Source: Anaerolineae bacterium
Lineage (GTDB): Bacteria > Chloroflexota > Anaerolineae > Aggregatilineales > Phototrophicaceae
NCBI GenBank assembly: GCA_030950085.1
Contig: JAUZRW010000223.1
Location: 1 to 47,350, forward strand
Direction: 5' to 3'
DNA: 47,350 nucleotides
The notes beneath the pieces are model-generated. The model made no database searches, was not told the DNA's origin, and worked only from the letters and a program-made list of their open reading frames with translations. The position numbers were made by a program, and so were the translations under genes. Shown piece by piece: positions 2,800 to 18,772 of this stretch. Numbering within the stretch: position 1 is the first letter of the stretch; the number at the start of each line of letters is the position of its first letter.

Positions 2800-5700
2800 A
2801 TGAACTTAACATCCAAAAAAGCCTTCATTATACTTCTTGTGGCATTTCTTGTTGTTTTATCGTTACCAGCATCAAATCCGCTGGTTCGCGCCCAAGAAAC
2901 AACCCAAGAGCCGATTCCTACTGATGACTCTATCAGTGGAACAGAACCACCGATAGCAACCGAGCAACCTACAGAAGTTGTGACGGAAGCAACGCCTGTT
3001 ACGGTTGTTCCAACAGAAGTGACTCAAGCACCGACTACTGTGGTCACAGACCCGCCTCCAGAAGCGACGGAAGCGCCCACTACTGTGGCGACAGACTCAC
3101 TTCCAGAAGTGACAGCAGAAGTGACGGAAGCACCCACTGCTGCGGCGACAGACTCACTTCCAGAAGTAACAGCAGAAGTGACGGAAGCACCCACTACTGA
3201 ACCTGAAGTGACCAGTGAAGTCACAGAGACGGTCGGTGAAGTCACCCCAGAAGTGACTGAAAGTGTCCCGACAGAAGAAACTATCATTCCTGAAATGACA
3301 TCGTTTAACGATGACTTTGAAGCCTTTACTGGGGATGGATGGCTGCTCTCAAATTGGCAAACGACAACAGACGTTGATAATACCTATCTGAGTAGTTTAC
3401 AAGCAAGTTCTACAGCCGCTGTTGACGGATTTAATCAGGCAAATTTTGAACTGAATGCACAAGTTCGTGTTGACCCCAACAACACAGCCATTATTTCCTT
3501 CCGTTCAGGAACAGAAACCTATCAAGCAATTTTCAATACCGCAGGCAGTAGCCGTCTCTATCGTGGAACGGAACTGCTTGATTTCTATACATTGCCAGCC
3601 AGCACAGAGCCAACATGGTTCAATGTGCAGATAGTCGCAGCTAATGACACTATCATCATTAGTGTGAACGGCGTTGCAGGGATTGTGTATAGCGATGCCA
3701 ACCCACTCGGCGCTGGTCAAGTCAGTTTCGGCACAGGTGATACCAATACAGGCAGCACGAGCATTGACAATGTGACGCTGAATGTTATTGATACGACAAG
3801 TCTGATTATCCCAGCAGAGGCAACGCCTTATTCGACACCAGAAGCAACCACTATTGCGCCAGAAGTAACAGAAATCGTCACTATTGAGCCGGAAATCACA
3901 GCAGAGGCAACTGCCGAAGTCACGCCAGAAGTCACAGCAGAGGCAACCGCTGAAGTCACAGCAGAGGCAACTGCTGAAGTCACGCCAGAAGTCACAGCAG
4001 AGGCAACTGCCGAAGTGACACCAGAAGTCACACCAGAAACAACGCCCGAAGTTGATACAGAGGCGCTTGCATTCGCAAAAATGGATGACCTCTTGCAAGC
4101 ATCACTTTATGGTGTAACCGATATAGCGCAAATGCTTGATAATCTTAAAAACTACGGTTTCTCATTTGATGAAAACAACAATGTCTTCATCCAAATTGTC
4201 GTTGCCGATGAGACAGACCCGATTGATATTGTGCCAGTTGTGGAAAATGCACAGGCGACTGCTTATAGCTTTGGACGTGATAATTCAGTTGTAGCTGTGC
4301 CGATTGCCAATCTCACGACGATTGCCCAAGATGAGCGCGTGATTGCCATGCGTCGTCCGGCATTAGCCATTTCGACAGGCTCGACAGAATCAAGTGCCGA
4401 AGCCCCGACTGGCACGGCTGTAACAAGAGGCTATGACATTCTCGGCGTTCAAGATTGGCATAATGCTGGGTTCACAGGAACAGGTGTCAACATTGCAGTT
4501 ATTGATGTTGGTTTCGCTGGTTCAACGGCGGGTCCAGAATATGCCTGTTTTGACTCAGTCGTCACTGGCACGGGTACGAGTGACCATGGGCTAGGTGTGA
4601 TAGAGATTCTGTGTGACATTGCCCCCGACTCAACGGTCTTTGGGATTACAGCCATCAACTTTGATGCCCTAGGTCCCGCCATCGCTGCAGCACGGAGTTC
4701 TGATGTCGATGCTGATATTATCGTCATCGCACTTGACTTGACCGCTAATCAATCACCGGGCGACGGTACAGGTCGTTCTGATGTTGACCAAGATGATGCT
4801 TATGTACAATTAGCGGCTGCGCGTAATGAAGGCATTGCGATTTTTGCAGCAGCCGGCAATAACGGTATCAATGCACCGGGAGTATTCGCCGGGACTGCGA
4901 CACGCACAAGCCGATATACGGCATTTAATTTCAGTAGCACAATACCCGGCAGCACTGTCACAGTCGTCTTTGAAGCATCGGCGAATGATGAAATTCGTGT
5001 TAGTTGGAGCGATTGGAATGGCTTTGGTGGGAGTGGGCAAAATGGCTCTCCCTTACCGGCCTTCGTTGAAGACTTCGACATCACATTGCAACAAGCTGGC
5101 GGCGGTACAGTAATAGATACAAGAAATGCGAGTCGCCTCAATGTTTTGGATAATCCATCGGCGGCGTTTACCGTATTCCGCCCCAACTGCTTCCCCGGTA
5201 CAGACCCCGGTGCAGATTGGGCATTTACCTGCCAAGTAGAAATCGTCATTACACGAGACAAAGGCGACACGCCTGTTGATTTCCAAGTGCAATTGATTCC
5301 TCAGAAAGCAAGTTATTTTGACTTCGGATTACTTCAATCGTTCGACGAATTGCCAAGCAATGTCTTCATCCAGAGTGTATCCGTTGCAACATTTGCTTCC
5401 GGTACATTAGCACGTCCAGCCGATTCGCCAGATGTGATTGCTGTTGGCGCGGTTTGTGCAACCGAATCATCAAATTTCGCATTGTTACCCACCAGTTCAA
5501 TTGGACCCATATTTGGTGTCAATGGGTCTCAACCGACTTTCCCATCAGCAAATAGTGCGCCTACCATCCCCTTCACCCGTGACGAGATACGTCCGCATCT
5601 TGTGAGTTTCTCGAATGTCGATACTGAGCTATCTGATATCGGCGCAACCGAAGGAAATTGTGATGGCACAATTGATGGCTCGATTGCGACGACAGGATTC

Positions 5701-8700
5701 AGTGGCACATCATCTGCCGTGTCGCATGTCGGGGGTATGGCAGCCTTGCTATTGTCGAACCCATCCATGCAATCAACATTTGATACAGGGTCAGCAGCCG
5801 GTGTTGATGCTCTGCTCGATTATCTACAAACACATTCTGCTGAACTGCCATTAGGGGCTGGTGCCAATAGCTTCGACTCTGATTATGGTGCCGGTCTCTC
5901 AATGCTCGGTGCGCCAGAATTTAACCTGAGCAATGTCCAGAATCCTAGTATCGCACCGGACGCTATTCCAGCAGCTTGTACAGGGACAATTATCTACGTT
6001 GGGCAGGCTCTTGTAGATGGTCTACAAAATGGTTCATTATCGAATCCCTATACCAGCCTTGCATTTGCAATCCAACAAGCAGCAGCAAACGATTGTATCA
6101 TCGTGATGCCGGGCGAATATGTCACGCCATTATTGATACCCTCGACAAAATCAAATATCGGTATCTATAGCTATAACTCCATCACTGGTGCGGCCTTCCC
6201 TGCATCAATCATTCGTGTAGCAGCGCAGTATGACAATGGCACATACACGATGGCAACCGGCTATGATACGACTGGTGGCACAGTCACCAAAACATTCCCT
6301 AGTCAGGCTGGTGTCTATCTGGATTCAGCCAGCAATATCACCTTCTACGGCTTCCATTTCGTAGCGTCTAACACCTTCTTGACCGATTCAAGTCCGCATC
6401 AGGCTTTTGTTGCCTTCAATAGTAACGGACTCGTGTTGCAGAACAACATCTTTGGTGCTGGTACGTCAGATGGCAGTGTATATGGTGGTTGGACAGATGG
6501 CGATACTACGCCCGTTTCGATTTTCAACAGCGATAGTATCTTGCTCCAAACCAATACCTTTAGCGGCAATACGGCGGGCTTTACAGGCAGTAACTTCGCT
6601 TTCCCATCTATTGCCCTTATAGACTCTGGTATTATTGGCTCTGAAGCGCAATTGATTGACAATTCGTTTGTCAACAATATAGCAACTGCCGTAGGTGGCA
6701 TCACAGACCTTTGGCCAAGCGTGTTTTTCGCCAATAATAGTGCGCTGGATATGGTGGCAAATGACTTCAATGGCAATACGGCAAGTACAGTCGTCGCAGT
6801 ACAAACCTTTGATGAAACTACGACAACTTTCCCCTTGCGGATGGCGAGCAATCTATTCATCAACAATGTACCCGGTGGAACAACTGGTGCGCCAATTATC
6901 CATGCTTATCATGTACCCAATCTATCGGTCATCAACAATACATTTGGCAATAATGTCACGGTTGGTTTCAGCAGTATCGTGGGACGCGGTAATCGCCTAG
7001 CCAACGGTTTCGGAACGCTGGCATCGGGCGATGTCCATATGGACTTCTTCAATAATTTGGTTTACACCACAACAACAACATCAGGGATTTACACATCGCC
7101 GGGTGATGCCATTACAGCTTGCAATAACCTTGCAGGCGGTGGTGCTGCAACAGTCCGTAACTGGTGGTGGACAACTTATAGTGGTACTTGCAGTACCGAG
7201 ATGGCTGCGAATAGCAATCTCCTCAATGTTGACCCTCTAAACGACTTTGTTGGGTCTGGTACTGGTTCACTCACCATGAATGATGTCAACTTCTGGGGCT
7301 TGCGCCAAACAAGCAGTGGACCAGATACGTTTAGCCAAGGCATTGACCGTAGTAATGTCACTGTGGGTAGCGATGTTGACCTAGCCTCTGCCCCATTTGA
7401 TAGAGACATTAACAATAATAATCGTGTCATTGACCTTTCGAGTTGGGAAGAAGGCAATGCAACCGATACAGGGACTTATCTTCTTGATATTGGTGCCTTC
7501 GAGTTCAATCTGCTTGACCTTGCCATTGACCAATACAGCCCTTATACACCGGTTGGTGTACCGGGCGGTGTACCTACGGCTGCTGACCTACCGATATTTG
7601 ATGAAGACAATGGAAATGCAGGAGCTAATAGCAGTCCGATTATTATCGACCTGAATAATGCAGTACGTGGGGGTTTTGGTCAATTGACCTTTGCGCTACA
7701 GCAACTACCGACTATCTATGGGACGCAATGTGGCAGTGCATATACAGATGCCAACAGAGGGTCTGTTCTCGGTCAAGGCATCAACAATGGTCTGCTATTC
7801 TACTGCCCACCGCAGCACTTCTATACTGATACGACACGCACGCCCTTAGAAAGCACCACCCCACCCGACCCGGCTGACTTCCCTGGTGGCGTTCCCGGCG
7901 ATCCAAATAATAATTTGAGTGGTACAGTTTTCACTTATGCCGACGATGATGCGTGGCCGGATTATATCATCTACACCTATACCATCAGTGATGAAAGTGG
8001 CGCTCAAGAAATAGGGACGGTTCTGATACAAATTAATGCCGTGAACGACACTGCCTTAGATGCAGCACCCGCTATTGTATTGGGTGATGGAACACCCGAA
8101 GACGATATTTTCCGTGTGACAGGCAACGTCGGCACGACCATTGTTCTGGATATAGATGCTCCTCCAACAGAATCTGTACAAGGTGTGTTACGCCCATTTG
8201 CATCGTTCACAAACAATTACTTCTTGTCAGAACTCACGAATCCTGAGTTTAACGACACAACAAATAACATCTATCGTATGGATTATCCGTTCACTTTCAG
8301 TAACGCAATCATCTACGATGTTGGCGATGGTATTATTAGTAGCCTGTCACTCGTCAATTCACGGATGGAAATCGGGCTAAACGATAATAATACAGGGTCA
8401 GCGATTGTTAGTTACACTGCTACAGATGCCAATGGCAATCCTATGGAAGTTCGCATTCTCGTGCGTGCAGTCAGTCGTATTCCGGTAGATGTCGGTTTGT
8501 ATGACGATGCTAGTTTTGTCTTTGATTATCGTGATGCTGCTGGTACTACCGAAGGTAACTGGTTAGCAGTAAACATGCCAACTGCTATCAACAATACAAT
8601 CCATCGCACCAATATTTTGGATGATACTGCCACCTTCGGTTTCAAGAACAACTCTGGTTTTGTCCTCTATATGCAGGGTATGGGTGGAGCTGGTTCTTAC

Positions 8701-11700
8701 TTTGATATTGAAATTGAAACGACAATACCCGGATCCCCCCCAACTATAACCAGCGTCTCGCTTAACACCAGTGGATGGTCGCTACTCGCAGGTTCATCGG
8801 CTGTTTACGAGGTAACGGCAGGCGACTTCTACTGTACAACAACCGGTATTCTAAATACGGCAGGCGGTCTCAGTTTGACGAGCATTGTTAACGGCTTCTA
8901 TAACATAACCTGCAACAACGACTCGCATGTCAACCCAGCAACTTATGTTGTGACTGTCACAAACAACTTGCAAGGTCGCTTCATCGTGATTGATGCCTTC
9001 GCTATCATTGATAGCACCTTCGGCACAAATGAGCCGTTGAATGTGGGTTATCACGATGTAGATTCACTACAAGTCCGCAATATCTTTACAGCAAACTGGT
9101 CAGAAATTCGCAGCGGCTTATATACCAATGTGATTGCCATGCGTACCCTAGATGCCAATCCACCTGACCTGACATTCGCAGTGACGGGTGGCTCAGGTTT
9201 CGCACTGGGTACAACATTACAACCGATATCTGGGACTTATACTATCTGTGTTGCAAATCGTGGTACAGGTGCGACAACCTGCCAAGACTTTAACAACACA
9301 CCCGACCCGATAACGCCTTTCCGTAATCGCGTTTTCCGCCCCTTCTATGGGCTAGACCCCAGTGTCATTTATGATGTTACGATTACGAATGTCAACCTCA
9401 ACGTTAATGGTCAATTTGTCATCGACTCGATTGTCGTCTTTGACCCCACGATGCCACCGGAAGCGATGGTTTCTGGTGTTGTTGAAGCGGATGAATTGGA
9501 ATACTTTGCTTATGGTGGCGGTGTTGAAGAATCATGGCGATTGAATCTCCGCGATTTCACTGCAACCGAACAATCATCTATCGGTTTAACCCCTGGTGTA
9601 CCGGGAGCAGGTCCTTACATCGGCTTTGAAATTGACGAGGCGCTCTCCATAATTTACTACTCCTATAGCGAAGTGTACGTTAGCCAACAGGCGATGATTT
9701 GTGTCGATAGAGGCGCAGGTGCTGGAACAAGCATCGCGGATGGTTACGGTAACTGTCTAAAAGTGAACTTATTCACAGGAGACTATACCGCCATTAATGA
9801 CGATGGCACTGATGGCACGAGTGGCAACATGAAAGTTTCAACGGGGACGATTCGGATTGATGAAACATTGTTCAGTCGTCCTTGGTTGGGTACAGATACG
9901 GATGGTATCGCTGGTATTGATGCCCATATCATCGAAATCTTTAGTTTGCATGATAGACGGCTTTATGTGGATCGCCTGATTGCGATTGGTGACACTGTGC
10001 CATTAACCGCCGGAAAATATGAAGAATATACCGAAAACATCGACTATCTCATCCCAGATGGTGGCGGTGCTTATATAGCAGCGACGATTGACCCTCATAC
10101 CAGCCCTGCCCCAACTTTATACACGGGCAACTTCACGCAAGTCACGGGTGTCGGCGCACTCTATGACTCATCACGCGGCATCATGTATACCGAAGAAGTG
10201 GGTAACGTGATTACGTTTGAAATCAACGGAACAGGCTTTGCGCCCATGATTCGCTTTGCACGCGATGGTGGTGCCATCAATATCTGCTGGCTCTCTTATG
10301 CTGGTGCTGTGCCTGCGCCCGAAACTGTTCTGAGTTCAGGGACATGCCAAAACTACGATACAGAAAGTCTCTATGTTGGTCGCAACGTACCGCGCCCAAT
10401 AATGGGGCTACCATCAGACACCTATGCTGTTGCTATAGAGTTCCTAGGCGATAATTTCGACACACGCAATCTTTTCCCAACATCAGTGTTATGGTTTGAT
10501 GGCGTGACAGTCTATGACGAAGACTTGTCCACAAGACTCAACACACTAGAAACAGGTATGACTTACGAGGGCAACTTCAACACGGAATTCACAGCCAATA
10601 ACTTCGCTTACTTTGGCAGCGCATGGCGCTATCTTGCAAGCCCCGTCTACGCGACATACTCCAACCGTGACTTTGACTTTATCAACGTCAATGCCGGGGG
10701 AGCAACTGTCGCATTTAAGACAAGCGGCGCAAATGTCATCGTATTGGATAGACCTTTACGCACAGGCTATGCCCCATTGTACATGTGCGCCCAAGAAGTC
10801 GGCGTAGCAAGCAATCGCTCTTGTGGTCTCGTAGACCCGACAGGGATTGGCTTCCGTAATGAATTCACATTCCAGTTGCCCTCTAACGGGACTTATATCG
10901 TGACGTTGACTGACCTCAATGGTGGTATCTTCTACTTTGATGCTGTTCGCCCTGTCTTGGCAGCAAACGTACTCACGGCTGGCAAATACGATGATGACAA
11001 TCCGTCGATTATGTATGACCGTTCGGCTCAAAATCTGGTACGCAATGGCAATATGGAACGCCTGAATACGACTGAAATCAGCTATTGGACAGATACAGGG
11101 GCGGCGACATCTGATAGATATCTTTTCATTCGTTATACACCGAACTATAGTCGGCGTGTCATGGCGAATGGTGGCGGCGGTATCCAAAGTTTGCCATTCA
11201 CTTTAACCGATGGGAGTACCTATAATTTCGTCGGCTACGTCTATATCCCGTCCACAACAGGCGGTACAGTAACCGTTGATATTGAGACCAGTGATGGTGT
11301 CACCAATGTCTTCTCAACAACTGTCACTGAGGTTAATAAGTGGATTCCGGTTCACTTCAACTTTACGCGAGCAAGCGACTTAGCTGACGTAGTAGTGCGC
11401 TTTACGGGTTCATCAGGTGCAACCTTCTATGTCGATGATGTCGATATCAGCGAAGGCAGTAACTGGCAATCGGTCTGGAATCGCGCCCTCTACTATGGCG
11501 AATATGTCACTGTCAATAAATCGCGTGGCGCTGAAGCTGCATTCCGCTTTACAGGGACGGGTTTCGCACTCGGCGTACCGACACACTCTTTAACAGGTGG
11601 TGAAATGCGCGTGTGTTGGTTGCCCGATGCTGGTGGGACAGCCACAAATGCCGATGTCATTGGCACAGGAACGTGCATGACCTATCAGCAGCAAGCATTC

Positions 11701-14700
11701 GCCGTTATCTATAACAATATCCGCACAATAACGGGGCTATCACTGGATACCTATCGTGTGGTTATCAGCGATGTGGAAGATGGACGTATGAACCATCCGC
11801 ACCCACTTCTAGTCGGTAACGCTCGCAATGCAGCGTTCGGTGTCGGTACTATCACACTCGACTGGGTGGAAATCTTCAACGAAGTACCTCCTGTTATCCC
11901 ATCCGGTGTTTACAGCGAAAGTGCCACAACAGGCACAGGTGAACGTGCTTTGATGGTGCAACCAGCAGACCGTTGGAATACGTTCTCTGGTCCAACATTT
12001 GTCGCGTATAGTGATTTGTCTTATCTGGGCGCAGTGAACCCACTCAACTTGCTAGACCCATTGGCATCTGGGCAGGCGGCAACTGTGAACTTGAACATTG
12101 CCGATACCCAATCGGCAACGGTTATCTTTGATGTCTGGCAAGCCGTACCGTCTGCGAGTGACCAATTACTCGCCTGTGTGGGCGAACCCGAAGGTGAATT
12201 CTACTTTGACGGCACAAGTTACGCATTCCAAGATACCAACGGTGTCCAAAACTGTGCGCTCTTATCAGATTTACGCACAAATCGCTATATCACGCTCAAC
12301 AAGGACATACTGCCTTTGTTGGAAAATACAACTGGCTCTGCGGTCAACCGTACACTGACCATTACAACCTTAACACACGGTCTGCTGCGGATTGATGACT
12401 TCCAAGTATTGGATAGCAATACACTTGTCCCCGGTTACTACGAAGAAAATATCGGCACAAGTATCTTACAACCATCTGATGCCAGTGCTTGGGCAACACA
12501 AACGTCCTTTGTCTATAGCGGTGGCGCGGCATTGCGTGCCTATAACACCAGTGGCGCTCAGGATATCCAAACTCTGACCTTCCAATTCACTGGGACAGGT
12601 GTTTCAGTTATATCATCTTTCGGCACAATTGGCGGTGAGCTAGAACTGAATGTGACAGATGGTGGTACCATTAACATCACAAAAGATTTCGGAGGCTCTG
12701 GTCTCTACACGGGGACACGCCGCCCCTATAATCGTTACGGTGTCTCGTTAGCGGTCGCTGGCTTGCCGCAAGGCACATATACAGCAACACTAACCATCAC
12801 CAATGACAACATTGAGCAAACCATCATTGACGCGATTGAGGTCTACGGCACACTGCCACAACTGGGTAGTTTATACGATGATGCCGATGTGGATGCCAAT
12901 GGAACACCACTTATCGCTTATGGCCCAGTTAACAATTCATGGGTCGAACTCACAGGGACATTGGCAGTTGGCGCGTTAAATCGCACCTTGCACAGTGGTA
13001 ACTTGCGCGGCTCTGTTGCAGCTTTTGAAATTGGTGTAACAGAGCAGGCACGCGGCATTGTGCTGTACTATGATGACCGCAGTACCGCAGTACAAGCTGA
13101 AATCTGTTTCCGAGATGTGTTGGGTATTGCGGCTTATGAGTGTCAAACAGTCACGGTAAATGATAACCTCGACCAGAAAACGATTGTAGCTGCCGCAGGT
13201 GCCGGAAACTATCTTGTGACAGTTGAAAATATCAGTGACACAGGCACGCTCGTACTAGATGCGGTGCAGGTTCTCGAATCGGCACTGACAGAAGGTATCT
13301 ATGATGCGGCTACCCTGTCCGCATTAACACCCGAAACCGATAGCACTAACTTCACTGGTGGCGCGGCACTCAATGGTACAAATATCGAAATGGCAGCTGG
13401 TGAGTTTATTGACCTAACAGTCGATAATATCGGCATTGGTTTTAGCTTCTTGCTGCAACATGCTGCCGGAACTAGCACCAGTTACGAAGTCCGCGTTTAT
13501 GATGTCGGTGATGTCAACAACTGCCGGACAAGCGTAACCCCCGCCGCAGATTGTCTCGAATATGAGCAAGTCCCTGTGGCTGGCGATGTCGTGCCGACTG
13601 TTGGTTCCAGTGCTTTAACCTATGTCGGTATGGAAGGCATGAATGGTGTCAATGATTACATCGTTCAATTGAGAAATACAGGAACAGGTGTTCTGCGCTT
13701 CTCAGAATTCCATGTACTCGGTGATGACAACTCACTGCTCGTCACGGATGTCACGCAACGCTATGAAAACAATGACCCACAAATCCGTTACCTGCCCTTT
13801 GGTAGCACCATTGAAGAGAACAATCGTTTTGGTGATGCTTCTGAACAAAGTCAACACCTCTACCAAACGCAGGGTGCAATCGCGTACTTTGAATTTGATG
13901 ATAGTAGTCAAAAAATTGGCTTTGAGTTTGCCCGTCAAGTTGGCTTGTTTGGCTATGGTCAATCAGAAGTCTGCTTCGGACGCATTGGCATCGACACGCT
14001 GATGGATGTTCGGGCTACCAATTGCCAAACGATTGATAACAACACAGCCAATGCCTATCGTGCAACAAGCAATATCACCACCCCATCGACTGATTACTGT
14101 GGCGCAGGTGGCTGTTGGGCTTCAATCCGTAGTTTGAGTACGCTGCGTTCAACTTTTGACTTTATCCGCTTGTTTGATGCTGATAACCCCTTGTTACAAG
14201 TCGGTTACTATGAAAATAGCACAGACAGCATAGACTATCTCGATGTTGCAGATGGCTACTCCGGTACATGGCAGGCTGATGTTGTCAGTCCGTTTGCCTC
14301 CGGTGGTTTTGTAAATAAAGTATCGGTCAATGATGATACGACGCTGCGTGATGGTTTGGGGCCTGTGGTCACATTCATCATGCAAGGAACTGGCTTCTCA
14401 GCTTACTTTACGAATAACGTCTTTGCTGATGCGGTCAATATCTGTTACATCCCCTATACAGGGACAGAGACAGCACAAGATGCCCTTACTACTGGGATTT
14501 GTCAGGAATTCGATAACCAGTATCCGGCAGTTGTTTACAAAGCAGCTCGCCGTATACTCGGTCTACCCAATGGTCAGTATCGTGTGGCTATCCAAATGCT
14601 GGCTGACAATGGTAGTCCAGCATTCCATCATCCGCTTCATGCCAATATCACCATGGAATTGGATGCTATCGAAATCCATGATACCGATTGGCTGGCGACT

Positions 14701-17700
14701 AACGCCCTAACAGCCGGAACCCGCTATGAAACAAACTATCGTAACCGCGTTATCGACAACAATTTCGCTTATCAGGGAACCGGTTGGATAACAGGCGAGT
14801 CACCGGTTCTCATTGCCTACTCTGGTAGAAACTATGATTTAGTACGTCTGTATGGGGCTGGCATTGTATTCAACACAACGGCTGATGCCGTCACATTTTA
14901 TGCCTATGCTCATCCTGCATTCTCACCCTTCCGCATCTGTGTGATACCGACAGGGAATGTTTATCAAACTGTGTGTCAAGATTATTCACAGACCGTCATT
15001 GGTGCCGGGATTCAAAAGCCCTTCAGCTTCCGCTTTGCGGACTTCGGCATCCAGCCCAGTGCGAATAATGTGGTCACGATTACGACATTATCAAATCGTG
15101 CAGCCTTCTTTGATGCTGTTGAGGTTCAAACAACCTTTGACGATGGCAATACTGTTCCTGAGCCACTGACAGAGGGGACATACGACTCGACGGATGCCAA
15201 TATCTTCTTTAACGATAGTTACGACCAACTCGTTCCTAATGGCAACATGGATAATCTTAGCCGTTGGACACAAGTTGGCGCACCGACGACAGCAGTGTTT
15301 ACGCCAGTCTCTCGTTATCAGGGCATATTTGGCTATTATGTCTCTGCTAATGACGGAGACGGTATCGAAAGCCAAGGTTTTGAACTAATCGGCGATGCCG
15401 GACGCTATACACTGGTCGCACGAGTTCGCGTTCGTGCAGGCAGTGTCAAGGTACGTCTGGTGCAAGGTGGGGATAACTTCAGTATTCCTGAATTCACCAA
15501 TGCCACAGTGACTGTCTCGCCATCCGGTCTGATATGGCAGACTGTCCGTGTCGAATTTAATGTGTCACAAAGTTTCTATACCGGTTACGGCAGTACCACA
15601 AATGATGGTTTGCGCGTTCAATTCCTCGCTGATTCGGATGGTTCAGTCTTCGATGTTGATGATGTCTCAGTCAATTTCGGTGGCGAGTGGCGCGGTGAAT
15701 ATTCGCCAATCTATACTAATGGCAATATCTGGACGAGCAAAACACATGGCGCGAGTTTCACATTCGCCTTTGAAGGCACGGGTTTTGAATTAGGCACTGT
15801 TGCTAACATTCAAGGTGGCGAAATGGAAGTTTGCTACATTACGCAAACAGGCTATACGGCTGGCATTATCACAGGCGATGGCTTCCAAAATGCTAACTGC
15901 TTCACCTATCAACAAGAAAGTGTGATTAGCACGCTGATTGCCCGTCGTGCGGTAACTGGCTTGCCATTCAATACCTATCATGTGCGCGTCCGCGATGTCG
16001 AAGATGGCGATAGCAATGTGCTAATCCTCCGTCCAGTCTGGCAACGCCATCCATTCTTTAACGTCGCAAAAATCGCTATCGACTACATCCGCATCTACAA
16101 TGATGACTATGTAGCCAGTTCAATCCAAGCCGCTCAATATGGCAATCTGACTGTACCACCGGGTTTCTATGAAGAAGATGCGCGTAACGAAACTACTGGT
16201 GAACAATACCTGCGCCTTGCCCCACCTGAGAGTTGGAAGCTAAACGAGGGTCTAATTGCTAGGTTCTATAGTGGACAAAGCTACTATGGTACGATTGATC
16301 AATTTGGACGTGCCACCTTTGCAAGTGCAGGGCAATCGGCAACCCTGTTTGTCGAAGTGCCATCCGATGGGGCAACAATTATTCTCAATACGGGTACTCC
16401 CTCAGTGCTTAACAGCAGTCAACTGCTCATTTGTGCAGGTGATGCTGCAACAGGCGATGGCTTTGATGGCGAAACCGTTTGGGATGGGCGCAATAACAAT
16501 GTTGCTGGGTCAAATGACTGCGTGATACGAGATATCCGCTTCAACAACGTCACGGTTGTCAGTGGTAATGACCTCGCGGCACTAAGTGGCAATAGTCCGG
16601 GTCCGAAACGGGTTATGTTCACGACTGTCGCACGCGGCTTCTTCTACATCGATAGTTATCAGGTTATTTATGGAACGGCATTACCACCGGGTATTTATGA
16701 TAATGCCTTGCCAGATAATCTCTTAGACTTTAATACCACAACATCAACAGAAGTTGATACGACGACCCCTGTTTGTAGCCTTATCCAATTAGATAGTGCG
16801 TGGTGTGTCCGCAAGAGTTTCGCGACTTATGCCCGTTCAACAGCCGTCACCCAATCTCTGGATGCTACCTTAGACTTCAACATACGGGGGACTGGTTTCT
16901 CAGTTGTCACCAATATAACAACTCTCGGTGTCGATTTCAGTATTTGTTATGCGAAAACATTACCCGGTGGTGGTAGACCAAACTTCCCCAGCCGAGCAAG
17001 CATTGCCGATGCTTCGCGTAATCTTATCTGGGCGAATGATATTGCTCTCGAAGTAGGCGGTATCTACTGTGATATTGTCACTAGCAACTATTTCCGGTGG
17101 ACTGCTCGTTTCCCCGATAGGTATCTACCCTTTGGTTATCAATATGGTTTCTCGTATTACGGGCTGCCAGATGATGACTACTCGGTACAAGTCATGATGA
17201 TTGATGACACACTCCTTGCGGCTAGTCCACAAGTCTTGGAAATTGACGCGATTGTTGTCTTTGATGACTACAATGACCTAACTGTGATGACACCGGGTTT
17301 CTATGACAGTGCTGATGCTCCTATCAGTTATGAGGGCGCTCCGTTCTGGCAGACTCTAAGCTATCCATTTGCCTATCCGTTCGGACCCTATGGTCAATCA
17401 GAAGAAATTTCTAAGAATGTCGGTGCCATTGCCCAAATGCAAGTCGATGGCAATGCGATTACGCTCTATCAAACGATGCTAACCAATCGCAGTCGGGATG
17501 TCCGAATCTGTTTGTTGATTACATATGCGACCATTCACTGTACGCAAAGTTCAGATACGACCAATACAGGTATCACGAACCCGCCAGCCAGTGCGCCACC
17601 TTATGCGCTAGCAGTGGATATGGCGAACTTTAGCCAATTTGGTGGACGGAGTTACTTCACTCCCATTATGTTCTACGGGTTAGGTGAAGGTACGCATCAA

Positions 17701-17766
17701 ATCATCCTAGAAAATCGTGACCATAACCGCTTCATAGGCATTGATGCTATTCTTGTCCACGACTAA
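2800..17766 (+). CDS. Giant secreted subtilisin-family (S8) protein with beta-helix and 17 tandem beta-rich units
   Basis: 4988 residues. Seen in order: signal peptide (1 to about 31, ending VRAQ); Thr/Glu/Val/Pro-rich linker (to about 165); a jelly-roll-like domain (about 166-332); a second PEVTAEAT linker (about 341-420); a propeptide-like region; and an S8 protease domain (about 544-1045). The triad is Asp569 (VIDVGFAG), His596 (SDHGLG) and Ser971 (GTSSAVSHVGG), with oxyanion Asn687 (AAGNNG). Next come a right-handed beta-helix-like region (about 1060-1480), closed by DIGAFEF, and Ig/cadherin-like segments (to about 1890). From there to the end are about 17 units, each opening with a GxYE/GxYD motif. 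Many units contain GTGF, a Cys pair and a closing IDAI/LDAV strand. No C-terminal anchor or sorting motif is seen. Inference: a secreted or surface-associated protease whose repeats may bind carbohydrate or build a fibre. Substrate unknown. The triad Asp context is DVG, not the usual D(S/T)G. Confidence 0.93.
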   Translation: MNLTSKKAFIILLVAFLVVLSLPASNPLVRAQETTQEPIPTDDSISGTEPPIATEQPTEVVTEATPVTVVPTEVTQAPTTVVTDPPPEATEAPTTVATDSLPEVTAEVTEAPTAAATDSLPEVTAEVTEAPTTEPEVTSEVTETVGEVTPEVTESVPTEETIIPEMTSFNDDFEAFTGDGWLLSNWQTTTDVDNTYLSSLQASSTAAVDGFNQANFELNAQVRVDPNNTAIISFRSGTETYQAIFNTAGSSRLYRGTELLDFYTLPASTEPTWFNVQIVAANDTIIISVNGVAGIVYSDANPLGAGQVSFGTGDTNTGSTSIDNVTLNVIDTTSLIIPAEATPYSTPEATTIAPEVTEIVTIEPEITAEATAEVTPEVTAEATAEVTAEATAEVTPEVTAEATAEVTPEVTPETTPEVDTEALAFAKMDDLLQASLYGVTDIAQMLDNLKNYGFSFDENNNVFIQIVVADETDPIDIVPVVENAQATAYSFGRDNSVVAVPIANLTTIAQDERVIAMRRPALAISTGSTESSAEAPTGTAVTRGYDILGVQDWHNAGFTGTGVNIAVIDVGFAGSTAGPEYACFDSVVTGTGTSDHGLGVIEILCDIAPDSTVFGITAINFDALGPAIAAARSSDVDADIIVIALDLTANQSPGDGTGRSDVDQDDAYVQLAAARNEGIAIFAAAGNNGINAPGVFAGTATRTSRYTAFNFSSTIPGSTVTVVFEASANDEIRVSWSDWNGFGGSGQNGSPLPAFVEDFDITLQQAGGGTVIDTRNASRLNVLDNPSAAFTVFRPNCFPGTDPGADWAFTCQVEIVITRDKGDTPVDFQVQLIPQKASYFDFGLLQSFDELPSNVFIQSVSVATFASGTLARPADSPDVIAVGAVCATESSNFALLPTSSIGPIFGVNGSQPTFPSANSAPTIPFTRDEIRPHLVSFSNVDTELSDIGATEGNCDGTIDGSIATTGFSGTSSAVSHVGGMAALLLSNPSMQSTFDTGSAAGVDALLDYLQTHSAELPLGAGANSFDSDYGAGLSMLGAPEFNLSNVQNPSIAPDAIPAACTGTIIYVGQALVDGLQNGSLSNPYTSLAFAIQQAAANDCIIVMPGEYVTPLLIPSTKSNIGIYSYNSITGAAFPASIIRVAAQYDNGTYTMATGYDTTGGTVTKTFPSQAGVYLDSASNITFYGFHFVASNTFLTDSSPHQAFVAFNSNGLVLQNNIFGAGTSDGSVYGGWTDGDTTPVSIFNSDSILLQTNTFSGNTAGFTGSNFAFPSIALIDSGIIGSEAQLIDNSFVNNIATAVGGITDLWPSVFFANNSALDMVANDFNGNTASTVVAVQTFDETTTTFPLRMASNLFINNVPGGTTGAPIIHAYHVPNLSVINNTFGNNVTVGFSSIVGRGNRLANGFGTLASGDVHMDFFNNLVYTTTTTSGIYTSPGDAITACNNLAGGGAATVRNWWWTTYSGTCSTEMAANSNLLNVDPLNDFVGSGTGSLTMNDVNFWGLRQTSSGPDTFSQGIDRSNVTVGSDVDLASAPFDRDINNNNRVIDLSSWEEGNATDTGTYLLDIGAFEFNLLDLAIDQYSPYTPVGVPGGVPTAADLPIFDEDNGNAGANSSPIIIDLNNAVRGGFGQLTFALQQLPTIYGTQCGSAYTDANRGSVLGQGINNGLLFYCPPQHFYTDTTRTPLESTTPPDPADFPGGVPGDPNNNLSGTVFTYADDDAWPDYIIYTYTISDESGAQEIGTVLIQINAVNDTALDAAPAIVLGDGTPEDDIFRVTGNVGTTIVLDIDAPPTESVQGVLRPFASFTNNYFLSELTNPEFNDTTNNIYRMDYPFTFSNAIIYDVGDGIISSLSLVNSRMEIGLNDNNTGSAIVSYTATDANGNPMEVRILVRAVSRIPVDVGLYDDASFVFDYRDAAGTTEGNWLAVNMPTAINNTIHRTNILDDTATFGFKNNSGFVLYMQGMGGAGSYFDIEIETTIPGSPPTITSVSLNTSGWSLLAGSSAVYEVTAGDFYCTTTGILNTAGGLSLTSIVNGFYNITCNNDSHVNPATYVVTVTNNLQGRFIVIDAFAIIDSTFGTNEPLNVGYHDVDSLQVRNIFTANWSEIRSGLYTNVIAMRTLDANPPDLTFAVTGGSGFALGTTLQPISGTYTICVANRGTGATTCQDFNNTPDPITPFRNRVFRPFYGLDPSVIYDVTITNVNLNVNGQFVIDSIVVFDPTMPPEAMVSGVVEADELEYFAYGGGVEESWRLNLRDFTATEQSSIGLTPGVPGAGPYIGFEIDEALSIIYYSYSEVYVSQQAMICVDRGAGAGTSIADGYGNCLKVNLFTGDYTAINDDGTDGTSGNMKVSTGTIRIDETLFSRPWLGTDTDGIAGIDAHIIEIFSLHDRRLYVDRLIAIGDTVPLTAGKYEEYTENIDYLIPDGGGAYIAATIDPHTSPAPTLYTGNFTQVTGVGALYDSSRGIMYTEEVGNVITFEINGTGFAPMIRFARDGGAINICWLSYAGAVPAPETVLSSGTCQNYDTESLYVGRNVPRPIMGLPSDTYAVAIEFLGDNFDTRNLFPTSVLWFDGVTVYDEDLSTRLNTLETGMTYEGNFNTEFTANNFAYFGSAWRYLASPVYATYSNRDFDFINVNAGGATVAFKTSGANVIVLDRPLRTGYAPLYMCAQEVGVASNRSCGLVDPTGIGFRNEFTFQLPSNGTYIVTLTDLNGGIFYFDAVRPVLAANVLTAGKYDDDNPSIMYDRSAQNLVRNGNMERLNTTEISYWTDTGAATSDRYLFIRYTPNYSRRVMANGGGGIQSLPFTLTDGSTYNFVGYVYIPSTTGGTVTVDIETSDGVTNVFSTTVTEVNKWIPVHFNFTRASDLADVVVRFTGSSGATFYVDDVDISEGSNWQSVWNRALYYGEYVTVNKSRGAEAAFRFTGTGFALGVPTHSLTGGEMRVCWLPDAGGTATNADVIGTGTCMTYQQQAFAVIYNNIRTITGLSLDTYRVVISDVEDGRMNHPHPLLVGNARNAAFGVGTITLDWVEIFNEVPPVIPSGVYSESATTGTGERALMVQPADRWNTFSGPTFVAYSDLSYLGAVNPLNLLDPLASGQAATVNLNIADTQSATVIFDVWQAVPSASDQLLACVGEPEGEFYFDGTSYAFQDTNGVQNCALLSDLRTNRYITLNKDILPLLENTTGSAVNRTLTITTLTHGLLRIDDFQVLDSNTLVPGYYEENIGTSILQPSDASAWATQTSFVYSGGAALRAYNTSGAQDIQTLTFQFTGTGVSVISSFGTIGGELELNVTDGGTINITKDFGGSGLYTGTRRPYNRYGVSLAVAGLPQGTYTATLTITNDNIEQTIIDAIEVYGTLPQLGSLYDDADVDANGTPLIAYGPVNNSWVELTGTLAVGALNRTLHSGNLRGSVAAFEIGVTEQARGIVLYYDDRSTAVQAEICFRDVLGIAAYECQTVTVNDNLDQKTIVAAAGAGNYLVTVENISDTGTLVLDAVQVLESALTEGIYDAATLSALTPETDSTNFTGGAALNGTNIEMAAGEFIDLTVDNIGIGFSFLLQHAAGTSTSYEVRVYDVGDVNNCRTSVTPAADCLEYEQVPVAGDVVPTVGSSALTYVGMEGMNGVNDYIVQLRNTGTGVLRFSEFHVLGDDNSLLVTDVTQRYENNDPQIRYLPFGSTIEENNRFGDASEQSQHLYQTQGAIAYFEFDDSSQKIGFEFARQVGLFGYGQSEVCFGRIGIDTLMDVRATNCQTIDNNTANAYRATSNITTPSTDYCGAGGCWASIRSLSTLRSTFDFIRLFDADNPLLQVGYYENSTDSIDYLDVADGYSGTWQADVVSPFASGGFVNKVSVNDDTTLRDGLGPVVTFIMQGTGFSAYFTNNVFADAVNICYIPYTGTETAQDALTTGICQEFDNQYPAVVYKAARRILGLPNGQYRVAIQMLADNGSPAFHHPLHANITMELDAIEIHDTDWLATNALTAGTRYETNYRNRVIDNNFAYQGTGWITGESPVLIAYSGRNYDLVRLYGAGIVFNTTADAVTFYAYAHPAFSPFRICVIPTGNVYQTVCQDYSQTVIGAGIQKPFSFRFADFGIQPSANNVVTITTLSNRAAFFDAVEVQTTFDDGNTVPEPLTEGTYDSTDANIFFNDSYDQLVPNGNMDNLSRWTQVGAPTTAVFTPVSRYQGIFGYYVSANDGDGIESQGFELIGDAGRYTLVARVRVRAGSVKVRLVQGGDNFSIPEFTNATVTVSPSGLIWQTVRVEFNVSQSFYTGYGSTTNDGLRVQFLADSDGSVFDVDDVSVNFGGEWRGEYSPIYTNGNIWTSKTHGASFTFAFEGTGFELGTVANIQGGEMEVCYITQTGYTAGIITGDGFQNANCFTYQQESVISTLIARRAVTGLPFNTYHVRVRDVEDGDSNVLILRPVWQRHPFFNVAKIAIDYIRIYNDDYVASSIQAAQYGNLTVPPGFYEEDARNETTGEQYLRLAPPESWKLNEGLIARFYSGQSYYGTIDQFGRATFASAGQSATLFVEVPSDGATIILNTGTPSVLNSSQLLICAGDAATGDGFDGETVWDGRNNNVAGSNDCVIRDIRFNNVTVVSGNDLAALSGNSPGPKRVMFTTVARGFFYIDSYQVIYGTALPPGIYDNALPDNLLDFNTTTSTEVDTTTPVCSLIQLDSAWCVRKSFATYARSTAVTQSLDATLDFNIRGTGFSVVTNITTLGVDFSICYAKTLPGGGRPNFPSRASIADASRNLIWANDIALEVGGIYCDIVTSNYFRWTARFPDRYLPFGYQYGFSYYGLPDDDYSVQVMMIDDTLLAASPQVLEIDAIVVFDDYNDLTVMTPGFYDSADAPISYEGAPFWQTLSYPFAYPFGPYGQSEEISKNVGAIAQMQVDGNAITLYQTMLTNRSRDVRICLLITYATIHCTQSSDTTNTGITNPPASAPPYALAVDMANFSQFGGRSYFTPIMFYGLGEGTHQIILENRDHNRFIGIDAILVHD
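3088..3198 (+). repeat. 57-base tandem repeat in the first Thr/Glu/Val/Pro linker
   Basis: Two nearly identical copies start at 3088 and 3145 (both open GCGACAGACTCACTTCCAGA). They encode DSLPEVTAEVTEAPT-type residues. The repeat is in frame, so copy-number change would lengthen or shorten the linker without breaking the protein. Confidence 0.85.
3901..4020 (+). repeat. 60-base tandem repeat in the second PEVT/AEAT linker
   Basis: Two 60-base copies (3901-3960 and 3961-4020) differ at only about four positions and encode AEATAEVTPEVT-type sequence. Finer 12- and 24-base periodicity is visible inside them. The repeat is in frame and likely to vary by replication slippage. Confidence 0.88.
8488..17766 (+). 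repeat. Higher-order repeat: eight-unit block present twice plus a final unit (protein level)
   Basis: Unit openings (GxYE/GxYD-type) were read at about 8488, 9039, 9466, 10003, 10546, 10972, 11898, 12423, 12856, 13285, 13740, 14190, 14700, 15163, 16150, 16680 and 17284. Unit n resembles unit n+8 best, at an offset of about 4.15-4.43 kb. Unit 5 has NNFAYFGSAW and unit 13 has NNFAYQGTGW. Units 6 and 14 both carry an NGNM-led insert. Units 7 and 15 share a long QSATV/QSATL and LLxCxG pattern. The copies have diverged strongly, so the duplication is old. Confidence 0.75.
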
Positions 17767-17881: not shown

Positions 17882-18772
17882 ATGCTCCTTGATTTTGCCC
17901 CACAAGTACACGATGCACTGCGAACAAACAAACCTGTTGTCGCACTTGAATCAACTTTGATTACACATGGTTTACCCTATCCCACGAATCGAGACACAGC
18001 CCTCGCTATGGAAGCCGCAGTACGCGATAGTGGCGCGATTCCAGCGACTATCGCTATTCTCAACGGAAAAATCACGGTTGGTTTATCAGAAACACAGGTT
18101 GAATCATTGGCGCAAGCTAAAAATGTCCGTAAGTGCAGCCGACGTGATTTACCAATCGCTGTTGGATTAGGCGAAACAGCCGCAACAACTGTCGCTGGCA
18201 CGATGATTGTGGCACACATGGCAGGAATCAACATTTTTGCAACAGGCGGTATTGGAGGCGTTCATCGTGGACATCCATTTGATGTATCCGCCGACTTAAT
18301 AGAATTAGGGCGAACACCCGTTGCAGTGGTCTGTTCTGGTGCAAAATCTATTCTTGATTTGCCCCTAACACTCGAAGTGCTAGAAACCAACGGCGTGCCT
18401 CTTCTTGGTTATCAAACTAGCACATTACCGGCTTTTTACACTCGTGATAGTGGTTTGCCGATAGATGCCCAAGTGAATACAGCCAGCGAAGCCGCAAGTG
18501 TGATTCGTGCCGCACAAAAACTCAATGCACAACATGGAATTCTCATCACTGTAGCTGTTCCAGAAAATGAGGCTCTAGCAGCCGAAATTGCCGAAAAAGC
18601 GATTCTGCAAGCGACAGAAGAAGCTGAATCGCAGGGGATTCACGGTAAAGAAGTAACGCCATTTGTATTAGGGCGCGTTGTTGAATTAACCGATGGCAAA
18701 TCTATGGCAGCAAATCAGGCATTACTCATTAACAATGCCCGTGTCGCCGCCGAAATTGCCAGCCAGTTGTAA
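17882..18772 (+). CDS. psuG: Pseudouridine-5'-phosphate glycosidase
   Basis: Known: PsuG reversibly splits pseudouridine 5'-phosphate into uracil and ribose 5-phosphate, in salvage or breakdown of modified nucleosides. Seen: the 296-residue length is normal. The catalytic Glu region VALESTLITHGLPYPTN (Glu23), the CSRRDLPIAV loop, GGIGGVHRG and CSGAKSILDLPLTLEVLE (Lys about 155) are all present. The C-terminus carries the HGKEVTPFVLGRV motif. No pseudouridine kinase (psuK) or transporter gene adjoins it, so it appears to stand alone; the kinase may be elsewhere. It follows the terminator of the giant gene and ends 12 bases before a dispersed palindrome, so it is likely monocistronic. The assignment is firm. 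Confidence 0.96.
   Translation: MLLDFAPQVHDALRTNKPVVALESTLITHGLPYPTNRDTALAMEAAVRDSGAIPATIAILNGKITVGLSETQVESLAQAKNVRKCSRRDLPIAVGLGETAATTVAGTMIVAHMAGINIFATGGIGGVHRGHPFDVSADLIELGRTPVAVVCSGAKSILDLPLTLEVLETNGVPLLGYQTSTLPAFYTRDSGLPIDAQVNTASEAASVIRAAQKLNAQHGILITVAVPENEALAAEIAEKAILQATEEAESQGIHGKEVTPFVLGRVVELTDGKSMAANQALLINNARVAAEIASQL

Follow-up and report, generated by a model that had tools for sequence, protein, structure and literature searches.

How does a bacterial protease come to carry an ordered array of 17 related domains, and what would such an array do? The question is raised by an uninterrupted open reading frame (ORF) of 4988 residues (positions 2800–17766, forward strand) in a 47,350-nucleotide stretch of Anaerolineae bacterium DNA (contig JAUZRW010000223.1 of assembly GCA_030950085.1), the whole of which is hereafter called the window. 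The best explanation as a whole, which we consider fairly probable, is a vertically inherited and probably exported subtilisin-like protease with a 17-unit jelly-roll rod that grew in stages and would tether the enzyme to a polymer. Unit pairing, alternation of unit classes, collinear orthologues, a common locus, predicted folds and intact catalytic residues were computed; from these we infer the order of events, export, carbohydrate binding and the substrate.

The unit array and its n + 8 pairing

The first-pass annotation of this DNA had described about 17 units in which each unit n resembled unit n + 8 best, and had explained them by the old duplication of a block of eight units, which had diversified beforehand, followed by the start of a third block. 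Here, the array was cut at anchors picked by eye, followed by pairwise scoring. The count of 17 was upheld, with the units spanning window positions 8485 to 17763. They are listed below together with the classes E and O explained further on; the basis is pairwise and profile scoring unless given in brackets.

8485–9036, forward: unit 1, constant first unit
9037–9465, forward: unit 2, class E
9466–10002, forward: unit 3, class O
10003–10545, forward: unit 4, class E, partner of 12
10546–10971, forward: unit 5, class O, partner of 13
10972–11895, forward: unit 6, class E with insert, partner of 14
11029–11409, forward: CBM4_9-like insert in unit 6 (Pfam PF02018, 30.2 bits, cut-off 25.9)
11896–12423, forward: unit 7, class O, partner of 15
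12424–12855, forward: unit 8, class E, without cysteine, partner of 16 (scoring, cysteine count)
12856–13284, forward: unit 9, class O
13285–13746, forward: unit 10, class E
13747–14193, forward: unit 11, class O
14194–14706, forward: unit 12, class E, partner of 4
14707–15165, forward: unit 13, class O, partner of 5, modelled alone (scoring, structure model)
15166–16152, forward: unit 14, class E with insert (about 15223–15630, from alignment), partner of 6 (scoring, alignment)
16153–16680, forward: unit 15, class O, partner of 7 (scoring, three-unit model)
16681–17286, forward: unit 16, class E, partner of 8 (scoring, three-unit model)
17287–17763, forward: unit 17, conserved C-terminal end unit (14-sequence alignment, CBM35-like model)

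Units were scored against one another at three depths, namely as single sequences with BLOSUM62, by profile–profile comparison of six orthologues, and with deeper profiles built from 6 to 17 sequences at each position. At the first depth, the unit eight positions away was the best partner for 10 of the 17 units (4–8 and 12–16), with shuffle Z values of 28.0 for pair 4-12, 20.5 for 5-13, 40.9 for 6-14, 25.3 for 7-15 and 7.6 for 8-16. The six-orthologue profiles likewise gave 10 of 17 (4–7 and 12–17), with four of the five pairs reciprocal and unit 8 preferring unit 2. The deepest profiles gave 11 of 17 (4–8 and 12–17), and the reciprocal best pairs 4-12, 5-13, 6-14, 7-15 and 8-16 scored 262, 298, 474, 287 and 135, respectively. 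None of 20,000 random unit orders equalled the sum of the offset-8 scores. With the same deepest profiles, pair 1-9 scored 66 (ranks 6th/5th), 2-10 scored 90 (6th/3rd; below the E–E mean of 104) and 3-11 scored 24 (12th/13th). If reciprocal n/n + k matches along a block are taken as the mark of a multi-domain super-repeat, one is present over five consecutive pairs (4–8 with 12–16) and none over the whole array, in which 1-9, 2-10 and 3-11 are not best partners. The n + 8 signal is real over these five units, and the statement that n is closest to n + 8 in all eight pairs holds for 4-12 to 8-16 and fails for the first three.

The near-constant offset was confirmed, with 4161–4431 bp between the starts of n and n + 8 over nine pairs, and in the translation NNFAY is present in both 5 and 13, and NGNM in both 6 and 14, as had been read. 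The QSATV/QSATL segment reported to be shared by units 7 and 15 proved to be out of register, with QSATL aligning with QAATV and QSATV with DGATI. A direct-repeat search of the DNA from 8485 to 17766 found four short families and no pair spaced near 4.2 kb, which indicates that the duplicated unit copies are old. Tandem Repeats Finder (longest period 500) returned nothing in the unit array, and self-BLAST of the whole protein gave no off-diagonal rows.

The likeness of n and n + 8 might reflect convergent constraint on the positions of a periodic rod, without any duplication. Regular contacts along a rod could favour like units at a fixed spacing, and the alternation described next shows either position-dependent constraint or ancestry. 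We nevertheless regard convergence as highly improbable, given that partner units are 30–36% identical over aligned whole units, that units 6 and 14 align across a domain insert found at the same place in both, and that units 1–3 are not paired with 9–11.

Beneath the pairing lies a lower-level alternation that the first-pass annotation had missed. With the deepest profiles, even offsets scored 69–79 and odd offsets 38–49 (offsets 1–12 except 8); offsets 13–16, with four pairs or fewer each, depart from this pattern. Without the offset-8 pairs, the means were 79.5 for even–even, 36 for odd–odd and 31 for even–odd comparisons, an alternation equalled by one of 20,000 label shuffles; deeper profiles gave 104, 51 and 41. 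Positions 2–16 are two alternating classes, E at even and O at odd positions, of which O is the looser, and the array order is U1-(E-O)x7-E-U17, with units 1 and 17 at the ends. Unit 1 is nearest to 16, 17, 14 and 8.

Relatives at a shared locus and the order of duplications

Relatives were sought with two parts of the array. A search of 200 genomes with units 4–8 matched 19, the window's own genome included; a first scan of the genome collection with the same units returned no relative, and a scan with the unit 17 alignment gave 12 loci, whose records are described as Anaerolineae, Chloroflexi, Anaerolineales (one) and Aggregatilineales (one). A 16S search of the window's own genome gave no match, and the taxonomic placement follows these descriptions of homologues. 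The unit 17 profile matched 28 of 98 genomes of the host family (13 of 24 genera; one match in the window's own genome), 29 of 154 genomes of the order (the added one at an E-value of 1.4e-4) and 9 of 396 genomes drawn class-wide (seven of the same family, two at an E-value of 7.2e-4). Locus L046 (G050, E-value 1.4e-4) was excluded from the tables after its translation had been inspected by eye, and so were unit matches under 12 bits, apart from a weak unit in the middle of L041 and of L044.

Collinear 17-unit orthologues occur in five further genomes, in frames of 4964 to 5331 residues, so that this type comprises six genomes of five genera with the window, at pairwise identities of 30–41%. 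Profile scans also revealed other unit orders. Eight genomes, all belonging to one genus, have a 15-unit form that lacks units 6–7 and the insert in 14 (four records complete, the rest in pieces), and two genomes have a 10-unit form. The 14-unit form of a single genome (L040) carries the 14–15 pair three times in tandem, as its units 7–12. These L040 copies cluster together in trees and are an independent expansion. In another genome, L066 has a five-unit form, 1-2-3-16-17, on a contig that stops inside the gene. Arrays of this locus group always begin 1-2-3 and finish with 17, which stands last, at the stop codon, in all 17 ORF records with a 3′ end. The class order is U1-(E-O)n-E-U17, with n = 7, 6 and 1 in the 17-, 15- and 5-unit forms, and the 10- and 14-unit forms each break the alternation once, with E-E; class profiles were trained by position on the 17- and 15-unit proteins, so only the labels of the 14-, 10- and 5-unit forms are a test.

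Beyond the locus group lies a distant set of nine giant ORFs (L060–L065, L067–L069), in six of which an S8 domain was found. Their first unit is unit 1-like, in some cases only very weakly, and in eight of the nine the last is unit 17-like. Their middle units hardly match, and class profiles assign them mostly to E; the last unit of L064 and L065 scores higher with class profiles, and L067 nearly alternates by per-unit profiles, not by class profiles.

Two neighbouring genes tie the locus group together.

1095–1778, reverse: SRAP gene, conserved upstream neighbour (Pfam)
17882–18772, forward: PsuG (Indigoidine_A) gene, conserved downstream neighbour (Pfam)

Among 30 fetched loci, SRAP lies upstream in nine and PsuG downstream in 15 (two being the same record), and the loci with either or both jointly include the 17-, 15-, 14- and 10-unit types. 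L034 has SRAP, WD40 and hydrolase neighbours without PsuG; neither SRAP nor PsuG was found within the available flanks of the distant set or of the 5-unit form, which lies on a short contig. On account of these common neighbours, the 10- to 17-unit variants are taken as orthologues at one locus.

The constant parts (S8 domain and units 1, 2, 3, 16 and 17) were used for a tree of 23 rows rooted on the distant set, leaving out L047, L067, L069, L071 and L072. The 17-unit proteins formed one clade (85/80), and the other (93/94) joined the 15-unit proteins (100/99) with the 5-, 10- and 14-unit proteins (88/87). Units recognisable as 8–11 are present in both 17- and 15-unit proteins, and so are doubled units of the 4–5/12–13 type, offset by six units in the 15-unit form; being present in both types, they probably predate the split. 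Units 6–7 were found only in the 17-unit clade, and the partner pairs therefore seem to lack a single history. In a tree of units 4, 12, 6 and 14, with the prefix A marking units of 17-unit-type proteins (A06, unit 6; A14, unit 14), A06 and A14 grouped in a single clade (98/87), separate from the unit 14 sequences of other types; four of the 59 rows were left out (the sixth unit of L040, the fourth and sixth of L041 and the sixth of L044).

As judged from these comparisons, staged copying within the array's middle part fits better than one eight-unit event, with formal tests borderline. The ends would have stayed constant while the middle was altered by gain or loss of groups of domains. The ancestor was probably a 15-unit protein with the doubled 4–5/12–13 already present; in the 17-unit lineage, pair 14–15, with the insert already in 14, would have been copied to between 5 and 8, and perhaps part of 12–13 also overwrote 4–5. 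Such copying, perhaps together with the overwriting, would have produced the n + 8 pattern over units 4–8. Relatives would have retained 15 units, shrunk to 10, or tripled the 14–15 pair.

In the competing account, a block of eight already diversified units was duplicated once and a single unit of a third block was added, the 15-, 14- and 10-unit forms being later deletions. It would readily explain the near-constant offset of 4.16–4.43 kb with five consecutive pairs, as well as the best matches of unit 17, which are 9 and 1. Moreover, 1-9, 2-10 and 3-11 is the best of the six matchings of 1–3 to 9–11, if narrowly (132 vs 121), the rootless 7/15 tree is compatible with it, and joining A14 with unit 14 of the others was not rejected by the approximately unbiased test (p-AU 0.080). 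We still hold it to be unlikely. Units 1–3 are not closest to 9–11 (3-11 scores only 24), A06 and A14 form a clade (98/87), extra losses of 6–7 and of the insert would be required in the sister clade, and unit 17 is the end unit even in the 10- and 5-unit forms. What remains of the proposed block duplication is multi-unit copying after diversification, with a demonstrable block of five units. Unit 17 does resemble 9 (96) and 1 (78) as its top matches, although unit 9 prefers 13 and 5; its interpretation as the start of a third block is to be abandoned, considering that it stands at the stop codon in all 17 records with a 3′ end, the 10- and 5-unit forms among them.

Staged growth has its own difficulties. 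The 17-unit clade has support of only 85/80, and the unit trees are short and poorly resolved. Besides the unrejected placement of A14 with its counterparts (p-AU 0.080), joining A06 to the others' unit 14 gave a p-AU of 0.047, counted as borderline. None of four groupings was rejected in the 4/12 tree (p-AU 0.13 to 0.16), from which the two L036 rows and, for 6/14, those of A, C, L047 and L070 were omitted, and the copies of the 17-unit proteins stay unresolved in the 5/13 tree. The 7/15 tree, lacking an outside root, separates five of six A07 units (98/96) from A15, B, C and D, a pattern also expected from an early duplication. In seven 15-unit records, those in which the second unit of 5/13 type is a scored match, the A05 profile outscores A13 on that unit, which speaks against simple descent of unit 13. 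Among 720 species permutations, the same-protein pairing was reached by 11 for 6/14 and by two for all five pairs jointly (72 for 4/12, 379 for 5/13, 148 for 7/15 and 186 for 8/16). Finally, gene conversion has probably acted between blocks at some points (L033 in the 4/12/6/14 and 4/12 trees) and could make A06 and A14 appear younger than they are.

Unit fold, polymer binding and comparable systems

Units 15–17 were modelled together from 12 sequences, with a mean predicted local distance difference test score (pLDDT) of 77 and a predicted template-modelling score (pTM) of 0.80, and unit 13 alone from 19 sequences (pLDDT 87, pTM 0.83). In structure searches, the three-unit model gave best Z values of 13.9 (unit 17) and 11.9 (unit 16), with carbohydrate-binding module (CBM) family 35 entries at 10.4–11.9; these rows mainly cover unit 17 and some cover unit 16. 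The unit 13 model matched carbohydrate esterase 2 (CE2) best (Z 12.6). CBM35, CBM6, CBM36 and CE2-type jelly rolls were among the top matches of both models, and the modelled units of both classes are predicted CBM35/CBM6-like (galactose-binding-like) jelly rolls. Foldseek with the three-unit model returned 50 PDB matches at E-values ≤ 0.001 (best 7.7e-11), none with a template-modelling score above 0.30; glycosidases, Cry insecticidal proteins and receptor ectodomains are among them, which points to a common fold, not a common function. Cry proteins and receptor domains were also among the structural matches to the unit models, and since they share the jelly-roll fold, the fold of a unit alone shows no function. 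The modelled pTM of 0.80 over three units supports fixed neighbours and the fold, not binding.

At the sequence level, a PDB search with the unit 17 profile gave nothing at an E-value ≤ 1, and no Pfam CBM6 or CBM35 match was obtained in the whole protein or in seven fragments (units 1–8, 10–11 and 14–17). Across units 6 and 14 of the 17-unit orthologues, CBM_6 and CE2_N each matched one of 12, and CBM_4_9 matched four of 12 (E-value ≤ 0.01). The insert, which is confined to units 6 and 14 of the 17-unit type, scored 24 bits for CBM_4_9 within the full protein, below the cut-off of 25.9, and 30.2 bits when unit 6's copy was scanned alone; unit 14 of the window had no direct CBM_4_9 match. Apart from the unit 6 insert, the window's unit fragments have no Pfam CBM match, which counts against tethering in that the case for carbohydrate binding is carried by the fold.

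Among 255 units of 20 ORF records, a set that includes pieces of one gene (L070 with L071; L045 with L072) and close relatives, 254 have an even number of cysteines (exactly two in 215, none in 16) and one has an odd number, which suggests one disulfide per unit. The cysteines that nearly all other units have are missing from unit 8 (12424–12855) in most members. In 177 of 234 units, an acidic residue close to the beginning is combined with a hydrophobic-D/N motif close to the end; CBM6/35/36 modules have a structural calcium site of this kind, to which the combination may correspond. As a separate observation, residues ~2556–5281 of L036 (G096) contain 11 short, basic two-cysteine segments (e.g. 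CTSFKRGKC) in different units, and the pattern-search list held no comparable series in other proteins. A DNA-level mobile element was considered as their source and dropped, as a direct-repeat search of the unit region gave one alike pair, at 77%.

A stiff rod of carbohydrate-binding-like domains would allow multivalent binding of biofilm or cell-wall polysaccharide, and such binding to extracellular or cell-wall polysaccharide is its likely role. Polymer binding would keep the exported protease on a protein-rich substrate matrix. A further, quite doubtful proposal is that the rod acts as a position-coded molecular ruler, the reach of the tethered protease being tuned by gain or loss of unit groups, mostly E-O dyads, at one chromosomal locus. 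In that reading, each unit position would have a conserved identity of its own, and the tuning would give the natural length variants of 10, 14, 15 and 17 units. Position-specific function is testable in this protein, because partner units have diverged to 30–36% identity and six genomes, from five genera, preserve the unit order.

Growth by several domains at once has precedents. According to Bjorklund et al. (2006; PMC1553488), multi-domain duplication, often in the middle of the repeat region, is established for repeat proteins, and nebulin expanded mainly by seven domains per step. The window protein shares this mode of growth, but it is a bacterial protease of jelly-roll units in which only a five-unit stretch is demonstrably doubled, with copies 30–36% identical. 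The titin A-band, according to PMC10665226, also has domain super-repeats, with position-specific conservation inside each; titin is built of immunoglobulin and fibronectin type III domains, whereas here there are two CBM-like jelly-roll classes with constant end units. With CBM35, CBM6, CBM36 and the CE2 N-terminal jelly roll (PDB entries 2w1w, 2waa and 3nqh), the units share the predicted fold (Z 11.0–13.9 over 110–119 residues) and differ in their low identity (8–19%), the lack of Pfam CBM6/35 matches in the scanned fragments, a cysteine pair in most units and their long ordered array. The accessory domains of the lactococcal cell-envelope proteinase are not known to form an alternating jelly-roll array. 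That enzyme is otherwise similar in being a large extracellular protease, bound to the cell wall in the account taken from PMC7783315, with export of the window protein being predicted.

The literature found on this kind of protein contained no description of the family. As far as our searches show, three things are new: the family itself, its alternating classes between constant end units, and the series of array lengths at a single locus. They provide a clear bacterial giant repeat protein whose growth is traceable at one locus across genera, and a giant protease family of uncultured Anaerolineae that standard profiles barely detect.

The protease domain and the parts upstream of the array

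The whole ORF and its parts upstream of the units are as follows.

2800–17766, forward: whole ORF, giant S8 protease, 4988 residues (uninterrupted frame)
2800–2895, forward: putative Sec signal peptide, residues 1 to ~32 (translation inspected by eye)
3014–3199, forward: Pro/Thr/Glu-rich linker repeats, first set (Tandem Repeats Finder)
3337–3708, forward: weak 3-keto-disaccharide hydrolase/LamG-like domain, residues 180–303 (Pfam PF06439, below cut-off)
3888–4052, forward: Pro/Thr/Glu-rich linker repeats, second set (Tandem Repeats Finder)
4414–5925, forward: S8 protease domain (catalytic residues and homologue alignment)
5971–7554, forward: right-handed beta-helix region (Pfam matches of homologues, weak PDB matches)
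7555–8478, forward: possible Ig-like linker region, tentative (Big_9 match at an E-value of 0.16 only)

The identification as a giant S8 protease was borne out. The window domain alone scored 22.7 bits against the Pfam S8 cut-off of 21.8, and S8 matched all 13 aligned homologues (E-value ≤ 0.1); the full-length window protein had no S8 match at an E-value ≤ 1 in Pfam or NCBIfam. Residues D569, H596, N687 and S971, corresponding to the catalytic Asp, His and Ser and the oxyanion Asn, are invariant in all 13 aligned, diverged sequences. A profile of the 13 S8 sequences recovered subtilisin BPN′ chains at E-values down to 2.3e-13, and phmmer with the S8 region alone missed subtilisins. The ORF is an S8-family protease by its sequence, proteolysis itself being predicted. 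It shares with subtilisin BPN′ and other S8 subtilases the catalytic D, H, N and S and their motifs, and differs in a giant C-terminal extension and a large insertion between N687 and S971. These two are separated by 284 residues, and an inserted domain is likely there (residues 688–970; window 4861–5709). The corresponding Asn–Ser spacing in subtilisin is ~66.

Most of the mass is non-catalytic, consisting of the beta-helix region, jelly rolls and Pro/Thr/Glu-rich linkers, and the protein might be mainly a structural adhesin or surface coat whose S8 domain serves only for self-processing. We judge this rather unlikely. The D, H, N and S that are invariant in the 13 diverged homologues do not decide the matter, since their conservation would fit self-processing as well as cleavage of a substrate. 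An active, tethered protease is our preferred reading, and the protein, with its putative signal peptide, is probably exported.

For the beta-helix region, Pfam DUF1565 was matched in three and Beta_helix in two of 14 homologues, the window's own region had no Pfam match, and weak PDB matches led to phage tail fibre and spike proteins. The PF06439 match had an E-value of 0.025 in the whole protein and 0.00068 in a fragment, below the family cut-off. The two sets of linker repeats (3014–3199 and 3888–4052) are tandem at the DNA level and look much younger than the domain array.

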